DNA from: Desulfobacterales bacterium | GTDB lineage: Bacteria; Desulfobacterota; Desulfobacteria; Desulfobacterales; JAIPEE01 | Direction of reading: 5' to 3' | DNA: 33,966 bases | Assembly: GCA_021737275.1 (NCBI GenBank) | Contig: JAIPEE010000002.1 | Location: 179,525-213,490, forward strand | Shown here: piece after piece, positions 1 to 15,762 of the stretch | How positions within the stretch are numbered: position 1 is the first letter of the stretch | Layout of the letters: each line of letters opens with the position of its first letter | Notes under the pieces: generated by a model | Told to the model about the DNA's origin: nothing | The model's input: the letters and a program-made list of their open reading frames with translations, nothing else | The model's database searches: none | Program-made: the position numbers and the translations under genes

Positions 1-660
1 TGTATAATCCCACAACAGATCACCTGAAGCATAAGCCGGTTTTGCAGCAAAAATTGCTTCCAGGCCTTTACTGGCGACCAGTTTGTATAAAATAAACAGA
101 CTGAGCACTGTGACAATGATGGCAATAAAATAGGAGTAGTCACGAATGGCTTTAGCGCCCTGCCTTAATAACAGCCATGAAATAACGATTGCTGACAATG
201 AGCCTAATCCTGAAACGACAGGGACGGATGATTCGGCGATCCACCCGGCTTTAAGGGCGATGCTGCCTGTTGCCGTTCCCAGTAAAATCAACAACATGCA
301 GTTCCATCCGGCAATTGACGCATATTGTATAAAAATTGTAAAGTAGGAACCCCGTGTGCCAAACTGGGGTTTACTTGAAGTGATGGTATCAATGCCATAT
401 TTGACACTACCGGGAATCGTTGCCATTACCACAAAAAACATGGCAACTAAACTTCCGGCGATCATGGCGATGGTACCCATCTTGGCATCCAGATAGTAAG
501 ATACATATTCGCCAATGATATAACTCCAGGCTGCTACGCCCGCGCTGATGGCAACGGCTGTCAGGCCCCATGCCCCCCAGGTTCGTTCACCCGGTAAAAT
601 CGGCCAGGTTCCTTCAATTGCCTCGTGCATTGCACTACTTTCAATTCCATTATCACTCAT
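1..660 (-). CDS. NCS1-type nucleobase/cofactor permease, N-terminal part (cut by window edge)
   Basis: The frame opens at an ATG at 658-660 and stays open for 220 codons to the left edge, so the C-terminal half is missing. Hydrophobic segments lie at about residues 31-50, 61-81, 106-133, 147-166 and 176-195. The sequence around residues 95-121 (SKPQFGTRGSYF, then QYASIAGWN) matches, from memory, the pattern of the NCS1 family of cytosine, purine, hydantoin and thiamine permeases, which are inner-membrane cation or proton symporters. The substrate cannot be assigned from half a protein. The start overlaps the stop of the upstream 53-residue membrane protein in an ATGA arrangement, which suggests translational coupling. 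The operon lies downstream of a sigma-54 promoter shared in type with the adjacent aldehyde dehydrogenase gene, so uptake and oxidation of one substrate are probably co-induced (inference). Confidence 0.75.
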   Translation of the reverse strand, partial: MSDNGIESSAMHEAIEGTWPILPGERTWGAWGLTAVAISAGVAAWSYIIGEYVSYYLDAKMGTIAMIAGSLVAMFFVVMATIPGSVKYGIDTITSSKPQFGTRGSYFTIFIQYASIAGWNCMLLILLGTATGSIALKAGWIAESSVPVVSGLGSLSAIVISWLLLRQGAKAIRDYSYFIAIIVTVLSLFILYKLVASKGLEAIFAAKPAYASGDLLWDYT

Positions 661-818
661 AGTGTCCACCCCCATAACATCAAAAGAAAAGGAATTATAA
701 GTCCAACAATAATCAGACCCCAATAATCTTTGCTGTTCAGTGATTCCCCTTCATAGGTGGGATCCTCAACCAGTTCGATCCGTTTGACAAGTTCAGGATC
801 CAGGTTTTCTCGTACCAT
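657..818 (-). CDS. Small single-helix membrane protein coupled to the permease
   Basis: This 53-residue reading frame starts at ATG 816-818 behind a strong ribosome-binding site (AGGGAGG, 5-6 bases upstream). It stops at 657-659, sharing four bases (ATGA) with the permease start. The product has a charged N-terminal half (MVRENLDPELVKRIELVEDP, a short linker, then NSKDYWG) and one C-terminal membrane helix at about residues 34-52 (GLIIVGLIIPFLLMLWGWTL). No signal peptide is visible. I do not recognise the family. Position, coupling and topology suggest a small accessory subunit of the permease, as known for some other symporters that need a one-helix partner; that role is inference. The frame is too short for many gene finders. 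Confidence 0.75.
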   Translation of the reverse strand: MVRENLDPELVKRIELVEDPTYEGESLNSKDYWGLIIVGLIIPFLLMLWGWTL

Positions 819-991
819 TATGACCTCCCTCCAAATAATTAATATTATTAAAACTGCAATAACCGGAACTATACCGGCTTTTGCGGGTTGTTATGCTGTT
901 GGGGATGAAAAATAATATAATTTCAATATCAAAATATAAAAAATATACTGGTACTTCAGTCGATGAGTAATAACTTTCTCTTTATATATGA

Positions 992-1016
992 ACAGCCCTT
1001 TTTAATAAGGCGCTGT
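992..1016 (-). promoter_or_regulatory. Leader stem-loop, copy A
   Basis: On the minus strand, arms ACAGC and GCTGT enclose an inner stem CCTT/AAGG, with one bulged G and the loop ATTAAA. It lies about 30 bases after the predicted sigma-54 transcription start and is kept, with changes, in copy B at 2920-2943. It may act in mRNA stability or attenuation; the function is unknown. Confidence 0.5.
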
Positions 1017-1055
1017 TTTATCAGCAAGGTTGAAAAATGATTTCTTAGTTTTAAA

Positions 1056-1071
1056 TGCATACGATGTGCCA
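1056..1071 (-). promoter_or_regulatory. Sigma-54 (-24/-12) promoter for the permease operon
   Basis: The minus strand reads TGGCACATCGTATGCA. It has the GG at -24 and GC at -12 at the spacing of the known sigma-54 consensus TGGCACG-N4-TTGCA. Transcription should start near 1046, leaving a leader of roughly 230 bases before the small membrane protein gene. Copy B has the same element with only one base different. Confidence 0.85.
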
Positions 1072-1110
1072 GTTCGGATTTTTACATATAATATATTTTT
1101 AAATATATGA

Positions 1111-1123
1111 AATCAATAGTTTT
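1111..1123. promoter_or_regulatory. Putative IHF site, copy A
   Basis: AATCAATAGTTTT matches the IHF consensus WATCAA-N4-TTR at all but the last base. It sits between promoter and enhancers, where IHF bends DNA in many sigma-54 systems. The same 13 bases are unchanged in copy B although the flanks have diverged. An overlapping dyad TCAATA-N5-TATTGA is also conserved. Confidence 0.6.
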
Positions 1124-1171
1124 TATTGAAAATTAACAAAATTATTAACAAAATTGAAATAAACAAAACAC

Positions 1172-1183
1172 GACAACAAAGTC
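1172..1183. promoter_or_regulatory. Proximal enhancer site (UAS), copy A
   Basis: GACAACAAAGTC is a GAC-N6-GTC dyad about 100 bp upstream of the -24 element. It matches the proximal site in copy B and resembles the distal sites, so all four probably bind the Fis-type helix-turn-helix of the regulator encoded at 3179-4954. Confidence 0.6.
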
Positions 1184-1237
1184 ATATTTTCTGTTTGTTT
1201 AAGTTATAAATCGTTGGAATAACATCAATATTTTAAA

Positions 1238-1255
1238 AATGACAATAATGTCATT
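1238..1255. promoter_or_regulatory. Distal enhancer site (UAS), copy A
   Basis: AATGACAATAATGTCATT is a perfect dyad with seven-base arms and a four-base centre, the most symmetrical of the four candidate sites. It is about 70 bp from the proximal site, the same spacing as in copy B. It lies about 170 bp upstream of the promoter, a typical enhancer distance. Confidence 0.7.
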
Positions 1256-1397: not shown

Positions 1398-2849
1398 TTA
1401 ATACTTAGCCCTGCTGACATCCATGACGATCTGCTTGGTCTCCGATAATCCGTTGAGTATCCAGGGACCAAGTATTCTACCGTTACCGGAGTTCTTCATG
1501 CCACCGAACGGAACCAGATAATCCCAGTAATTCGTATGCTCATTGACCAGTACAGTACCATGGTCAAGATTGTCGGCAAAATACCACGCATTATTCAGTC
1601 CAGAAGTAAAGACCGCGGAGCTCAGGCCGTAAATTGTATTATTCGCAATTTCAACGGCTTCTTCTCTTGTTGAGAATTTGATTATCGGAGCAACCGGGCC
1701 AAATGTTTCTTCAAAATTCAATTCCGCATCTTTCGTAACATCCACAAGTACTGTAGGTTCAAAATACAGATCCTTGCAGTTGCCACCAAGCACAAGTTTG
1801 GCGCCTTTTTTAACAGCATCGGCGATATGGCGTTTGATTTTTTCAATGCCTTCCTTATCGTGAAGCGGCCCAATATCGGTCTTTTCATCAAAAGGATCGC
1901 CGCAAACAAGCTTAGATGCTTTTTCGATGAATTTTTTTGTAAATTCATCGTATACGGCTTCATGGACCAGTAATCTTTCTGCACCGCAGCAAACCTGGCC
2001 GCAGTTATAATAAATGCCTATCATACAAGCATCAACGCCCGCGTCTATATCGGCATCATCCATAATGATCATCGGTCCGTTGCCACCCAGTTCCATAACT
2101 CTTCTCTTGAGCCCGGATACTTTGCAGGCAATCAGGCCGACTTCGGTGCTTCCGGTAAAGGTAATGGCATCAACGAGTTCATGCTCGAATAGCTGTGTGC
2201 CGACTCTGCCGGAGCCCAAAACAAAATTGAAGACTCCCGGGGGCAGGCCTGCTTCATCGAATATCTTTACCATGAGCTGACAACTGAAGGGACAAAATGA
2301 CGTCGGCTTGAATACGTCCGTATTACCCAGCATAAGGGCGTAGGGAACATATTCCAGGGTAAGTGCTATAGGGAAATTCCACGGTGTAATGGTTGCGACA
2401 ACTCCGATTGCCTCCTGCCGCACCATTATTTTTTTATTGTTTGACTTCTCTTCCGTACTGGGTGGCATAGAGTTTCGGAATCTCTTAACTTCTTCTATGG
2501 CGTCGTTAATATTAGGTAGTCCCAGATGATATATCTCTTCTATTGCTTCGGCATGTATTTTGCCCATTTCCAAAACCATCAGCCTGGCCATTTCGTCTCC
2601 ATATTTTTCGAAACCGATTTTAGAGGCCTTCCTCAGTATCTCCCCTTTTTCCTTGATAGATACAAATTTCCAGCTCTTTTGTGCCTCTTTTGCGCATTTT
2701 ACAGCATAGTCAACCTGTTCCGTCGATGCTTCTTTAAAAGTACCAATCACTTTTCCATTAATTGGGCTGACGACTTCCCTTAAAGGGCCATCACCCTCGA
2801 CCCATTCGCCGTTGATAAAGCATTTTGCAGTTAGCATTTCTTTTGACAT
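1398..2849 (-). CDS. NAD(P)-dependent aldehyde dehydrogenase
   Basis: This 483-residue protein has the normal length for the aldehyde dehydrogenase superfamily, which oxidises aldehydes to carboxylates in the cytosol. Visible motifs are TPWNFP with N158, the cofactor lysine K181 in FKPTS, FTGSTEVG at about 231-238, the general base E253 in MELGGN, and the catalytic cysteine C287 in NCGQVC (followed by another Cys). The ATG follows a strong GGAGG site. A sigma-54 promoter lies about 130 bp upstream (2982-2997) and a 14 bp hairpin follows the stop. Flanking by a permease and a sigma-54 regulator points to oxidation of an aldehyde made from an imported compound. The substrate cannot be named from sequence. 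Confidence 0.93.
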   Translation of the reverse strand: MSKEMLTAKCFINGEWVEGDGPLREVVSPINGKVIGTFKEASTEQVDYAVKCAKEAQKSWKFVSIKEKGEILRKASKIGFEKYGDEMARLMVLEMGKIHAEAIEEIYHLGLPNINDAIEEVKRFRNSMPPSTEEKSNNKKIMVRQEAIGVVATITPWNFPIALTLEYVPYALMLGNTDVFKPTSFCPFSCQLMVKIFDEAGLPPGVFNFVLGSGRVGTQLFEHELVDAITFTGSTEVGLIACKVSGLKRRVMELGGNGPMIIMDDADIDAGVDACMIGIYYNCGQVCCGAERLLVHEAVYDEFTKKFIEKASKLVCGDPFDEKTDIGPLHDKEGIEKIKRHIADAVKKGAKLVLGGNCKDLYFEPTVLVDVTKDAELNFEETFGPVAPIIKFSTREEAVEIANNTIYGLSSAVFTSGLNNAWYFADNLDHGTVLVNEHTNYWDYLVPFGGMKNSGNGRILGPWILNGLSETKQIVMDVSRAKY

Positions 2850-2919
2850 TGTAATACCTCCTTCTTAGTTGATAGTTTTGGTACTTCAGCCGATGGACAA
2901 TAGCTTTTTCTTTATATAA

Positions 2920-2943
2920 ACAGCCTTTTTGTTAAGGTGCTGT
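2920..2943 (-). promoter_or_regulatory. Leader stem-loop, copy B
   Basis: The minus strand can fold as ACAG/CTGT around CCTT/AAGG with a CA bulge and loop AACAAA. Compared with copy A, the loop and bulge differ while the paired arms are kept, which fits selection for RNA structure. Confidence 0.5.
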
Positions 2944-2981
2944 ATTATCAGCAAGGTTGGAAGTTTATACTTTTCATAATC

Positions 2982-2997
2982 TGCATACGACGTGCCA
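2982..2997 (-). promoter_or_regulatory. Sigma-54 (-24/-12) promoter for the aldehyde dehydrogenase gene
   Basis: The minus strand reads TGGCACGTCGTATGCA, a near-perfect match to the sigma-54 consensus at both the -24 (TGGCACG) and -12 (TGC) elements. The predicted start is near 2972, giving a leader of about 120 bases. Confidence 0.88.
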
Positions 2998-3036
2998 GAT
3001 TGGATTTTGAAATACAATATATTTTTAACTATTTGA

Positions 3037-3049
3037 AATCAATAGTTTT
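3037..3049. promoter_or_regulatory. Putative IHF site, copy B
   Basis: AATCAATAGTTTT is identical to the copy A site and lies about 45 bp upstream of the -24 element, between promoter and enhancers. Confidence 0.6.
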
Positions 3050-3095
3050 TATTGAAAATTAGCAAATTTATTAAAAGAATGGAAATATATTAAAG

Positions 3096-3111
3096 ATGAC
3101 AAGAAAGTCAT
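3096..3111. promoter_or_regulatory. Proximal enhancer site (UAS), copy B
   Basis: ATGACAAGAAAGTCAT is a perfect ATGAC-N6-GTCAT dyad about 100 bp upstream of the promoter, at the same relative place as 1172-1183 in copy A. Confidence 0.65.
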
Positions 3112-3168
3112 ATGTTTTGCTTATTTAAGCTATAAATTACTGAAATAATATCAATATTTTAAAAAAAA

Positions 3169-3180
3169 GACAACAATGTC
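3169..3180. promoter_or_regulatory. Distal enhancer site (UAS), copy B, overlapping the regulator stop codon
   Basis: GACAACAATGTC is a GACA-N4-TGTC dyad. On the minus strand the regulator's TGA stop (3179-3181) is the first part of the site, so the enhancer and the end of the coding sequence share bases. Confidence 0.6.
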
Positions 3181-4954
3181 ATAATTTGGGACTGCTAAGG
3201 CCATGTTTCTTGATTTTTCTCAGAAGTGTTCGGTAATTGATATCAAGTATGTTAGAAACATCACGCCTGCGCCACCGATGCTTTTCCAGTAAACTTTGAA
3301 TTACTTTTTTTTCAACATCGTCTACAAAAGATTGCAGCGGTTTTTCATCAAAGCGGTTAAAATCGATATTTTCCGGAATCTGTTGAAAATCATCTGTCTC
3401 TGTTGAACTGATGTCCATAAAGTCTATTTTATTCAGCGTAACATATCGTTGGACAACATTTTGCAGTTCCCTGACATTTCCGGGCCAGTCATAATTCTGA
3501 ATCGCATCTATGATATTTTGTGAGTTGACATTAATGTTTTTATCCGTTTCCTGTTTCAGGAAATGGTATACAAGCAGGGGAATATCCTCTTTTCTTTCTC
3601 TTAATGGCGGCAGACTCAGTGGGATAATGTGAATCCGGTAAAAGAAATCTTCACGCATGGCGCCGGATTTAATAAGTCTTTTTAAGCTCTTATTGGTGGC
3701 CGCAATAATTCTGACGCTCGGTATCTTAACTTCATTGCTGCCAACCGGTGTATAGCCGCTTCCCTCGATTGCCCGCAATAGTTTTACCTGTAAATTCAGG
3801 TTGATTTCACCGATTTCGTCCAAGAACAGGGTGCCGCCTTCAGCAATATCAAGATAGCCCGGTTTATCCGAGTTGGCGCCGGTGAAGGCCCCCTTTTTAT
3901 ATCCGAAAAATTCACTTTCAATAAGATGCTCCGGTATGGCACCACAGTTAACCGGTACAAAACGGTTTGTATGACGGGAACCCATTTTATGGATAGCACG
4001 TGCAGCCAGTTCCTTGCCGGTACCGGATTCTCCATAGATAATGACATTGGCATCAGAGTTGGCTGCCTGCAGAATAATGTCAAAAACTTGTTGCATGGCA
4101 TCACTTCTGCCGACGATATCGCAAAATTTATAGGAGTTTTTGATATTATATTTCAGAAGTTTATTTTCCCTGTTGAGCTGCAGCTCCAGCATTTTCTGCT
4201 CTGTTACATCAGTGATAAATCCTTCCAGTGCAACAAGTTTTCCCGTTTTTGAAAAAACCCCGATACCCTGTTCCCATACCCACTTTACTTCTCCGGATTT
4301 TGTGATAATGCGGAAAGTAAGCTCAAACGGTTTTTTGGTTCCAAAGGTTTTCTGAGAATCTTTTCTAATTCTTTCAACGTCATCCGGATGTACAATATCA
4401 CAATAAGGAATAACATTGTCATTAATCAGATCAGAGGGTTTATAACCGGTGAGTTCAAGACAGCCATCACTTACCACCTCCATTGTCCAGTTATGATTGT
4501 TTTTGCAGCGGTAAGCAAGACCCGGAAGGTTGCTCATCAATGTGGAAAGCCGCCGCTCACTTTCGGTAAGCGCTGATTCCGCCTTAACACGGGGTGTGAC
4601 ATCCCTGGATATACTGATCGGTAAGAGCTTGCCGTCCCACAATGATTGAGTGATCTTGGTTTCAACCGGTATCAGGTTTCCGGTTTTGGTGACAAATGGC
4701 ATGTCGCCGATAAAATGTTTTTTCGTCAACATGTCATGCAGTAAATCATTTGCTTCTGTTTTACGATCTTCCGGGTACAAATCAATTATATGCATTGCCG
4801 TAAGTTCATCAAAGGAATAACCAAGACACAAAAATACAGCAGGGTTGGTATAAATGATATTGCCTTCATTATCCAGAATAATGATGAAATCTAAAAGATT
4901 ATCAAAAAATGTAATCAGATCCTGGCCGGAAATATTTTTCAAACGCTCTTTCAT
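3179..4954 (-). CDS. Sigma-54-dependent transcriptional activator with two PAS domains
   Basis: This 591-residue enhancer-binding protein has PAS sensor domains at about 13-125 and 135-255 and an AAA+ sigma-54 interaction domain from about 278 to 510. That domain shows Walker A GESGTGKE (308-315), the sigma-54-contacting GAFTGA loop (355-360) and Walker B GGTLFLDE (373-380). A Fis-type helix-turn-helix lies at about 550-585. There is no receiver domain or membrane helix, so it likely senses a cytosolic ligand or redox signal through PAS rather than a kinase. The ATG has AGGA upstream. It sits 38 bp after the DUF11 gene and directly upstream of the module controlling the aldehyde dehydrogenase, and its own stop codon overlaps an enhancer site. 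It most likely activates both copies of the module. Confidence 0.93.
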   Translation of the reverse strand: MKERLKNISGQDLITFFDNLLDFIIILDNEGNIIYTNPAVFLCLGYSFDELTAMHIIDLYPEDRKTEANDLLHDMLTKKHFIGDMPFVTKTGNLIPVETKITQSLWDGKLLPISISRDVTPRVKAESALTESERRLSTLMSNLPGLAYRCKNNHNWTMEVVSDGCLELTGYKPSDLINDNVIPYCDIVHPDDVERIRKDSQKTFGTKKPFELTFRIITKSGEVKWVWEQGIGVFSKTGKLVALEGFITDVTEQKMLELQLNRENKLLKYNIKNSYKFCDIVGRSDAMQQVFDIILQAANSDANVIIYGESGTGKELAARAIHKMGSRHTNRFVPVNCGAIPEHLIESEFFGYKKGAFTGANSDKPGYLDIAEGGTLFLDEIGEINLNLQVKLLRAIEGSGYTPVGSNEVKIPSVRIIAATNKSLKRLIKSGAMREDFFYRIHIIPLSLPPLRERKEDIPLLVYHFLKQETDKNINVNSQNIIDAIQNYDWPGNVRELQNVVQRYVTLNKIDFMDISSTETDDFQQIPENIDFNRFDEKPLQSFVDDVEKKVIQSLLEKHRWRRRDVSNILDINYRTLLRKIKKHGLSSPKL

Positions 4955-12767: not shown

Positions 12768-13985
12768 ATGACAAATATAGATTTCAGGCAGATTGTACAT
12801 GCTCTTTCCGATATGCTTGATTTGGTCGGTATAGACGATGTCCAGCACGGCAAGCGAGTTGCATTTATGGCAGTAGAGTGTGGGCGATATATGGGAATGA
12901 ATGATGCAATGCTCGATACGATATACCATGCTGCACTCATCCATGATTGTGGGGTCTCCTCTTCAAATATGCACACTTATCTTGTTACAGAGCTGAACTG
13001 GGATAAATCGGAAGATCACTGTTTGTGTGGAGAAGCTTTACTTTCAGGTCACCATTTGTTTGCTGATTATGCACCGATAATATTATACCATCATACACAT
13101 TGGGATATTCTGAAAGATAAAAACCTGCCTGATGACATCAAGCTGATAGCCAACTGTATTTATATGGCGGACCGCATTGATGCACTGGTAGTCCGGAATT
13201 CGGGTAAAAATTTGCTGTTATCCCGTGATATTATCAGAAATACGATCAGAAAATATAAAAGCACTTTTTTTTCTCCGGAACTGGTCGATATTTTTTTAAA
13301 TATTTCTCAAAATGAAATATTTTGGCTTATGCTTGATCCCCGGCATATTTCAACGTACATCTGTGATATGTCAAAGGTTTCAAAAGTGATAGAAATAAAT
13401 GAGGGCGCTTTTCTGGAAATTGCAAAACTGTTTGCAAGTGTTGTAGATGCAAAAAGCACTTTTACTGCTGAACATTCCTTTGGCGTGGCAAAATTATCAA
13501 AACTGATTGGTAAACTGGCGGGACTCGATAATGAGGTGTGTTCAATACTGGAGATTTCAGGTCTGCTTCATGATCTTGGAAAGTTGAATGTACCGGATGA
13601 GATTCTGGATAAGCCGGCCCGGCTTACAATTGATGAACGTGCAGTGATGATGCACCACAGCTTTGAAAGTTATCAGATTTTAAAGCGGATTGACGGGTTT
13701 GAAACAATTGCAAAACTGGCGGCTTTTCATCATGAGACATTAAGCGGCCAGGGATATCCTTTTCATCTTGAAGATGCCGGCCTTCCTTTAGAGGCTCGAA
13801 TAATTGCCATTGCTGATATTTTTCAGGCACTGGCCCAAAATCGTCCATACCGGCTGTCTATGCCGCCATGGGATATCATGGGCATTCTGACAAGAATGAC
13901 CGAAGAAAATAAACTTGACGCAGAGATCGTTTCACTGGTTAATAATAATTTGCAGGGTTGTTGGGAAGCCGCAACCGGGAAATAG
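12768..13985 (+). CDS. Tandem HD / HD-GYP signalling protein
   Basis: The ATG at 12768 is chosen because the longer frame opens only with a TTG four codons earlier. The 405-residue product has two HD domains. The first (about 5-200) has AALIHDCG with the HD pair at 59-60 and YHHTHWDI, but no GYP. The second (about 215-395) is a fuller HD-GYP: GLLHDLGKLNVPDEIL (HD 268-269), LTIDERAVMMHH, HHETLSGQGYP (321-331, GQGYP instead of GTGYP) and IADIFQALAQNRPYR. HD-GYP domains hydrolyse c-di-GMP or related cyclic dinucleotides. It could oppose the diguanylate cyclase encoded at 7983-9623. It sits 49 bp before the aldehyde:ferredoxin oxidoreductase gene. Confidence 0.88.
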   Translation: MTNIDFRQIVHALSDMLDLVGIDDVQHGKRVAFMAVECGRYMGMNDAMLDTIYHAALIHDCGVSSSNMHTYLVTELNWDKSEDHCLCGEALLSGHHLFADYAPIILYHHTHWDILKDKNLPDDIKLIANCIYMADRIDALVVRNSGKNLLLSRDIIRNTIRKYKSTFFSPELVDIFLNISQNEIFWLMLDPRHISTYICDMSKVSKVIEINEGAFLEIAKLFASVVDAKSTFTAEHSFGVAKLSKLIGKLAGLDNEVCSILEISGLLHDLGKLNVPDEILDKPARLTIDERAVMMHHSFESYQILKRIDGFETIAKLAAFHHETLSGQGYPFHLEDAGLPLEARIIAIADIFQALAQNRPYRLSMPPWDIMGILTRMTEENKLDAEIVSLVNNNLQGCWEAATGK

Positions 13986-14034
13986 TAATATAGAGAGGGT
14001 TTGGTTTAAACGATATAACTATGGAGGAGAAAAA

Positions 14035-15762
14035 ATGTCTAAATTACTAAGAGTCAACACCAGAAAGAAAACATTTTTATTTGAAGAACCCGGAAATTCG
14101 ATTAGCTCTTTGGGCGGGAGAGGACTGACATCCCGGATGATTTTAGATGAAGTACCGGCTGATTGCCACCCCTTAAGCAGGGATAACAAGATAGTCATTG
14201 CCCCTGGAATTTTAACGGGCACACCTGCAGCAAATAGTTCAAGACTTTCGGTTGGCTCGAAGTCACCACTGACCGGCGGCATAAAGGAAAGTAATTCCGG
14301 AGGGCTTGTCTCCTATAAGCTGGCGAGGCTTGGTATAAAAGCCATTGTACTTGAAGATAAGCCGGAAGATGATGCCTGGTCCATGATCATCATCAAAAAA
14401 AATTCTGTAGAAATTCTGCCGGCCGATGAATATATCGGTAAGGGCACTAATGAAATGGTTGAAAAAATGTGGGCAAAATATGGTGATAAGGTCGGCGTTA
14501 TGTGTATTGGCGCCGCAGGAGAACAGCGGCTCTCTGCTGCCAGTATTCAGCTTGCAGATCCTCATGGCCGTCCCGGCCGGGCAATTGGCAGAGGCGGGCT
14601 GGGGGCTGTAATGGGTTCAAAAAAGATAAAAGTGATTATTGTTGATGATAAAGGTGCTGAAAAAGTTGAGATGGCTGATAAGGAAGCATTTAAGGCGGCC
14701 AGTAAAGCATGGGCAAAAATGCTTGCGGATCATCCTGTTACAGGCCAGGGCTTGCCGGGTTTCGGGACAGCCATTCTGGTAAATATTATCAATGAGGCGG
14801 GTGCTCTTCCGACCAAGAACTTTAGAAGCGGTCGTTTTGAGCATGCAAAAGATATCAGCGGAGAAAAGATGGTGGAGCTGATAAAGGAGAGAGGTGGAGT
14901 GGTTTCCGAAGGATGCTGTCCCGGATGTGTCATCAAATGTTCTCAGTCGTACAATGACAAGGATGGTAATTACCTGACATCCGGTTTTGAATATGAAACA
15001 ATCTGGGCAGCAGGTGCGCATACGATGATTAAGGATATGGATGATATCGCCATGCTTGATCGGATATGTGATGATGTCGGCGTCGATACTATTGATTGCT
15101 GTGTTGCGCTGGGTATTGCCATGGAGGGCGGTGTTATTGAATGGGGTGATGGTAAAGCTGCCATTGAGCTGTTAAAGAAAGTCGGCACTGATGATCCCAT
15201 GGGAAGGATTATAGGAAATGGCGCCCATTTTACCGGTCAGGCACTGGGTGTCGATCGTGTACCGACCTGTAAAAAACAGGCACTGCCTGCATATGATCCC
15301 AGGGCCGTAAAGGGCGTTGGTGTAACATATGCTACGACGCCTATGGGTGCAGACCACACTGCCGGTTACGGTGTTACTGCAAATATTTTATCGGTAGGTG
15401 GTACTGTTGATCCATTTGAAAAGCCGGGCAATATTGACCTTTCAAAAAATCTTCAGATTGCCACTGCGGCAGTTGATTCGGCAGGCTTCTGCCTGTTTGT
15501 TGCCTTTGCTGTTTTGGATACCGAAAACGCACTGCAGCTAATTGCAGATATGGTAAACGGCCGTTACGGCACCCGTATTACGCCGGACGATATTATTGAA
15601 CTGGGCAAGTCGGTGCTTAAAAGTGAATATGAATTTAATGAGAAAGCCGGCTTTACAAAGGTTGATGACCAGTTGCCCGCATTTTTCAAGGAGCAGTTCC
15701 CGCCGCATAATGTGACTTGGGATTATAGTATTGATGAGCTCCAGGAGGCGAAAAATTTCTAA
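14035..15762 (+). CDS. Tungsten-dependent aldehyde:ferredoxin oxidoreductase family protein
   Basis: The ATG at 14035 follows GGAGGAGAAAAA; the frame extends upstream but without a start of similar quality. The 575-residue length and blocks match the AOR family, which uses a bis-pterin tungsten cofactor and a [4Fe-4S] cluster to interconvert aldehydes and acids with ferredoxin. Cluster ligands are C295-x2-C298-x3-C302 and C486 (DSAGFC). GGRGLTSRMI (27-36), GRGGLGAVMGSKKIK (185-199) and the MGADHTAGYG block (437-446) are also visible. It is slightly shorter than the ~600-residue archaeal enzymes, as in many bacterial homologues. The next gene, 3 bp away, encodes a MoaD-like protein, a frequent companion of AORs. 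The physiological substrate is unknown. Confidence 0.93.
   Translation: MSKLLRVNTRKKTFLFEEPGNSISSLGGRGLTSRMILDEVPADCHPLSRDNKIVIAPGILTGTPAANSSRLSVGSKSPLTGGIKESNSGGLVSYKLARLGIKAIVLEDKPEDDAWSMIIIKKNSVEILPADEYIGKGTNEMVEKMWAKYGDKVGVMCIGAAGEQRLSAASIQLADPHGRPGRAIGRGGLGAVMGSKKIKVIIVDDKGAEKVEMADKEAFKAASKAWAKMLADHPVTGQGLPGFGTAILVNIINEAGALPTKNFRSGRFEHAKDISGEKMVELIKERGGVVSEGCCPGCVIKCSQSYNDKDGNYLTSGFEYETIWAAGAHTMIKDMDDIAMLDRICDDVGVDTIDCCVALGIAMEGGVIEWGDGKAAIELLKKVGTDDPMGRIIGNGAHFTGQALGVDRVPTCKKQALPAYDPRAVKGVGVTYATTPMGADHTAGYGVTANILSVGGTVDPFEKPGNIDLSKNLQIATAAVDSAGFCLFVAFAVLDTENALQLIADMVNGRYGTRITPDDIIELGKSVLKSEYEFNEKAGFTKVDDQLPAFFKEQFPPHNVTWDYSIDELQEAKNF

Follow-up and report, generated by a model that had tools for sequence, protein, structure and literature searches.

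The window, that is, the whole stretch of 33,966 nucleotides from a Desulfobacterales bacterium that was analysed, begins on the minus strand with an operon whose first gene encodes a small membrane protein and whose second encodes a permease. The features of this region are as follows.

1..660, minus strand: NCS1-type permease, N-terminal 220 residues; its start overlaps the small-gene stop and it extends beyond the window
657..818, minus strand: small gene, first of the operon; 53-residue one-helix protein with an ATG start
824..832, minus strand: Shine-Dalgarno region GGAGGGAGG, 5 bases ahead of the small-gene ATG
949..1239, minus strand: small-gene leader, with a second copy at 2879-3165 preceding the aldehyde dehydrogenase gene
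1056..1071, minus strand: sigma-54-type promoter site upstream of the small gene; consensus match, 19/21 points
1398..2849, minus strand: aldehyde dehydrogenase (PF00171)
2982-2997: predicted sigma-54-type site of the aldehyde dehydrogenase gene, 20/21 points
3179..4954, minus strand: PAS-domain sigma-54 activator, adjoining both transcription units

The product of the minus-strand frame 657-818 is MVRENLDPELVKRIELVEDPTYEGESLNSKDYWGLIIVGLIIPFLLMLWGWTL. The strong ribosome-binding site and the ATGA overlap described in a first-pass annotation are both seen in the minus-strand sequence, with GGGAGG 5 bases 5′ of the ATG and the small-gene stop overlapping the permease ATG at 660. The single membrane helix is likewise recovered: the highest 19-residue Kyte-Doolittle mean is 2.36, and AlphaFold2, run with four sequences, predicts helices at 8-18 and 29-52 (mean pLDDT 74), the second being the membrane helix, in a protein of fewer than 100 residues. 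Every Lys and Arg precedes this helix. A short helix comes before the membrane helix, with an E-L-x-[KR]-R segment common to family members. The description "unannotated" holds in part; homologues are entered in the 11 public records examined, where they go without a name, as "hypothetical protein".

The whole permease, completed from the contig (L003:14755-16185:-), has 476 residues. It passes the Pfam model PF02133 with 78.3 bits (cut-off 23.5), in keeping with its earlier assignment to NCS1, and lies far below the cut-off of the NCBIfam ncs1 model TIGR00800 (79.1 against 353.1 bits), while a profile of 18 permeases from its clade, defined below, has Mhp1 (4.4e-31) and CodB (6.2e-14) among its matches; it is therefore a divergent NCS1 member. 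Identity with the other clade permeases ranges from 23 to 77%. AlphaFold2 run on three permease sequences only gave a pLDDT of 40.7, too poor for judging the fold (Mhp1/LeuT). The same genome holds a second clade permease, of 23-24% identity (L014, G000:C43:5218-6564), and a one-helix frame stops 127 bases short of this gene on its upstream side; a downstream frame there resembles, by eye, an aldehyde ferredoxin oxidoreductase, and chemoreceptor genes lie close by. The third NCS1 gene of the genome (L040) is without a small partner.

On the 3′ side of the permease follow an FAD oxidoreductase (top NCBIfam match PadH-like, under the cut-off), a 4Fe-4S protein and an aldehyde ferredoxin oxidoreductase, which we take together to resemble the NAD-coupled AorABC enzyme. 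A second aldehyde ferredoxin oxidoreductase gene (PF01314 and PF02730) lies apart from the operon at 13915-15762. The two copies of the leader, of ~290 bases with three segments 84-87% identical, each carry a sigma-54-type site, and the remainder of the duplicated sequence may hold activator sites; the PAS-domain activator likely regulates both transcription units. The window has seven sigma-54-type sites scoring at least 18 points in total, so that some of them must be chance matches. In ten relatives, a scan reaching at most 900 bases ahead of the permease found sites in L072 (21 points), L004 (19) and L006 (where the 18-point site does not precede the small gene), and none in L005, L020, L022, L023, L024, L026 or L014.

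Relatives of the locus were collected by permease similarity, blind to the small gene. A one-helix frame adjoins the permease in all 31 clade loci so obtained (L007, which is the window, L004, L005, L006, L014, L020-L024, L026-L036 and L067-L076), many of which are closely related, amounting in our judgement to about a dozen independent lineages. They come from Bacillota, Actinomycetota, alpha-, beta- and gamma-Pseudomonadota and one metagenome-assembled genome titled Deltaproteobacteria (Myxococcota in the tree labels). The frame is open in 29 of the 31 and interrupted by a stop in two (L033 and L075), and it lies upstream of the permease in 30. The exception is L006 of Brevibacillus, where it has a start of its own 50 bases 3′ of the permease; a gene just upstream of this permease (L006:4285-5571) is by eye reverse-transcriptase-like, perhaps part of a group II intron, and might be linked to the move. 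The two starts are coupled in many loci, by ATGA in the window and several relatives, with gaps elsewhere of up to ~120 bases, and 127 in L014. The clade is patchy in its distribution and frequently plasmid-borne. The first-pass annotation had proposed other Desulfobacterota as the place to search for relatives; a close permease (E ≤ 1e-60) occurs in none of 394 other genomes of the phylum.

A blind filter for frames of 40-95 residues, with hydropathy of at least 1.6 and within 120 bases of the permease, picked out 25 of the 30 loci of this clade and 1 of 34 assessable loci from other NCS1 branches. All five clade loci that it missed were identified otherwise: L014 and L023 were seen in other inspection, L068 is annotated, and L033 and L075 were later found to be interrupted. 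The control set comprised 36 loci (L008-L013 and L037-L066), from which L008 and L046 were left out because they start 6 bases before the permease. The only control frame, in L051, has no match to the family profile at E ≤ 1 and is thus unrelated, and in E. coli K-12 no small gene is annotated next to codB or allW. A tree was built from 64 permeases, excluding L008 and the fragment L065 (its long branches include L014 and L072). All 28 rows labelled as bearing the small gene fall inside one clade of 30 rows with support 100/99, the remaining two being L033 and L075, scored as lacking the gene that was found there afterwards. The trait requires 2 changes on this tree against a mean of 21.2 when shuffled, and none of 500 shuffles was as low. 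The gene is thus linked to a single transporter clade.

Plasmids give the same picture. Three small proteins, compared by tblastn with 72,556 plasmid records, matched 13, 3 and 19 places. Each of these 35 is fewer than 120 bases 5′ of the matched start of a clade permease, on the same strand. They make up 35 of 41 permease-bearing records; inspection extended to those of Arthrobacter, pYKAM101 and B. badius and to one of Thioclava, two further Thioclava records lying outside this coverage. The Neobacillus small protein had no match among the plasmid records, as a single-sequence search misses distant types. Conservation beside homologous permeases, set beforehand as the test on which the frame would stand or fall, is thus found at every one of the 31 loci and 35 plasmid positions. 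Six of 60 Neobacillus genomes have the permease, and it is these six that have the small family (E ≤ 1.3e-14; next match 0.0116). As five of them contributed to the profile and the sixth is nearly identical, the informative part is the absence from the remaining genomes. Across 398 Bacilli, three genomes match the small-family profile at E ≤ 0.003, two of them in the training set. In the third (G543) an NCS1 permease gene follows immediately after the small gene, and a divergent sigma-54 activator adjoins them; this small-gene copy is outside the training set and resembles L072, which is in it.

Homology within the small family was assessed with profiles built without one cluster at a time and scored against 6,916 frames, eight held-out rows being listed for each run. 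The profile lacking the window and L004 recovers the window frame at E 8.6e-11 and L004 at 2.9e-13. Values for other held-out members are similarly low in L006 (1.7e-12), L024 (1e-12), L028 (8.6e-13) and L023 (1.9e-6), and rise through Neobacillus (3.7e-9 to 5.2e-6), L027 (4.6e-5), L026 (5.7e-4) and the rhizobia (0.0017 to 0.055, with four of eight loci among the matches listed) to L072 (0.037) and L071 (0.053). For the Rhizobium/Burkholderia type, L034 and L067 alone are among the matches listed, at 1.0 and 1.1, and L014 varies from 0.0057 to 6.8 across training sets. The small protein of plasmid KHPS2, in no training set, scores from 4.1e-11 to 0.065, and the best unrelated frame among the matches listed scores 0.12, or 0.033 with smaller training sets. 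By profile alone, therefore, the homology of the Rhizobium/Burkholderia type and of L014 is marginal, and given these weak values their membership, and to a lesser degree that of L071 and L072, rests mainly on position, size and the common segment. No Pfam or NCBIfam model covers any of 25 members beyond single chance-level matches (best E 0.012 and 0.0095), and the small protein compared with family and PDB profiles also gives chance-level matches only.

The codon changes are those of purifying selection on the small protein. Nei-Gojobori dN/dS of the small gene lies between 0.11 and 0.71 over 28 pairs, below 1 in every one, so that the neutral-like pattern named in advance as telling against the frame is not what we find. 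For the window and L004 it is 0.19, at a dS of 1.5, which is near saturation. In 27 of the 28 pairs dN of the small protein exceeds that of the permease. A chance or neutral frame at 657-818 was considered as well, and is ruled out by the held-out profile match together with dN/dS.

One member of the permease clade appears to be a transporter of known substrate. MetT, the NCS1 metformin importer of Aminobacter sp. NyZ550, was described in 2026 and placed by its authors in a separate NCS1 clade (PMC13390362). On the Pseudomonas plasmids KHPS1, MET-2 and KHPS2 near-identical permeases lie beside a TetR regulator, accompanied in the two longer plasmid stretches by HypA, HypB and a gene of agmatinase type. 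The plasmid permease carries the sites of the forward and left-arm primers published for metT and is therefore MetT or nearly so; for L033 and L075 the identification rests on these primer matches and the gene neighbours. Both fall inside the same 30-row clade as the window permease and, as in the window, a small-family gene immediately precedes each of them, although L033 shares 30% identity with the window permease and has different gene neighbours. Whereas the small gene is open in the window, it is interrupted in two of the three metformin plasmids. KHPS1 and MET-2 have an in-frame stop between the two helices, in natural contrast to KHPS2, where the gene is open, encodes 63 residues and is annotated "hypothetical protein". 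The word "obligatory", used of the subunit in the first-pass annotation, is difficult to maintain in view of these alleles. An ATG visible beyond the stop makes them candidates for restart giving the helix alone.

In the accessible text of the MetT paper the small neighbour goes unmentioned (PMC13390362). With the primers placed on the Pseudomonas sequence, the small gene falls inside the left arm of the metT deletion, which probably left it in place. As the complementing clone begins at metT (PMC13390362), the published metT work is not a test of the partner. Two MetT homologues, given as synthesised permease genes, failed to complement, which the accessible text explains by pocket residues or expression (PMC13390362). 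A 2022 plasmid paper has, in its accessible part, one hypothetical protein in the shared region (PMC9800807), which may or may not be the small gene, and the accessible parts of three further papers do not mention a small neighbour (PMC11399263, PMC11647477, PMC11271267).

The genes neighbouring clade permeases encode agmatinase-type enzymes, choline dehydrogenase, haem-dependent N-demethylase and, often, aldehyde dehydrogenases. In L094 (5767-9780) and L072 (7982-11338) the permease is beside genes for a haem-dependent oxidative N-demethylase (PF11927/DUF3445) and aldehyde dehydrogenase, hinting at N-methylated amines as substrates. Taken with MetT, these neighbours suggest that the clade transports small organic cations (amines, guanidines), and the window permease would do so too.

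We consider it probable that the product of 657-818 is a single-span auxiliary subunit dedicated to the permease encoded after it, within an organic-cation branch of NCS1. This is based on the presence of the frame in 31 of 31 loci, the 25 of 30 against 1 of 34 in the blind comparison, the single clade in the tree, the 35 of 35 plasmid positions and dN/dS, as well as on the co-occurrence in Neobacillus, the G543 copy and retention after the change of gene order in Brevibacillus. Against it stand the interrupted plasmid copies, the faster change relative to the permease and the types with marginal profile matches. We infer that the small protein associates physically with the permease and is needed by it. 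It would more likely sit in the membrane with its N terminus inside, as all Lys and Arg precede the helix, and the coupled starts would give similar amounts of the two proteins. The single helix may then pack beside the 12-helix permease, where it would stabilise the permease or bias its conformations rather than line the substrate path. A strict need is doubtful given the interrupted alleles, unless restart beyond the stop yields a helix-only peptide.

Other explanations fit parts of these data. The small protein could belong to the same pathway without binding the permease, for example as an anchor for an enzyme or regulator; the segment before the helix could bind a cytoplasmic partner, and aldehyde dehydrogenases and ureohydrolases recur as neighbours. 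These enzymes vary among loci, however, while the permease is constant and all 35 plasmid matches are tied to it, and we regard such a role as unlikely. Still less probable is a leader frame, whose translation loads ribosomes onto the nascent permease or anchors it and whose peptide has no lasting role. The ATGA coupling in the window and several relatives and the upstream position of most copies fit such a frame; the Brevibacillus copy lying downstream with its own start, the selection on amino acids and the gaps reaching ~120 bases, 127 in L014, do not. The two interrupted copies and the patchy, often plasmid-borne clade might suggest a dispensable relic carried along with the operon; with dN/dS below 1 in 28 of 28 pairs, and the gene kept beside permeases with as little as 23% and at most 77% identity to that of the window, this is very improbable.

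A stronger form of the auxiliary-subunit reading, which we put forward tentatively and regard as rather doubtful, is that this NCS1 branch is a two-component transporter, most members of which reach full activity only with the one-helix protein as a subunit that regulates or gates them. If so, the MetT homologues that failed may have lacked their own partner, and the interrupted plasmids would contain either a permease recently freed from its partner or a helix made by restart. Should the partner be conserved across the branch, assays of lone permeases, those of metformin uptake included, may miss a subunit. Such small natural pairs would allow a test of what one extra helix does to a transporter, and annotators could replace "hypothetical protein" with the name of a family.

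The solved NCS1 transporters Mhp1 and CodB are known as model single-chain symporters. Both are matched by the clade profile, and codB, unlike the clade permease genes, has no annotated small neighbour. Small partners are known from other symporters: MetS of MetP in the NSS family, YjcH and the DUF4212 proteins in the SSS family, and YhdT of PanF. The first-pass annotation knew of none for NCS1 permeases, and in the open-access literature (subscription papers being outside the scope) we likewise found no report of a one-helix partner, nor is there a Pfam or NCBIfam family. The small family resembles MetS, YjcH, the DUF4212 proteins and YhdT in being a short membrane protein encoded beside one symporter gene, and is distinguished from them by the transporter family that it accompanies and by the Pfam and NCBIfam models, as judged on 25 members. 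A tiny symporter partner is therefore of a known kind, while one for NCS1 appears, as far as could be seen, to be new, and with it NCS1 would join the symporter families that have such partners.
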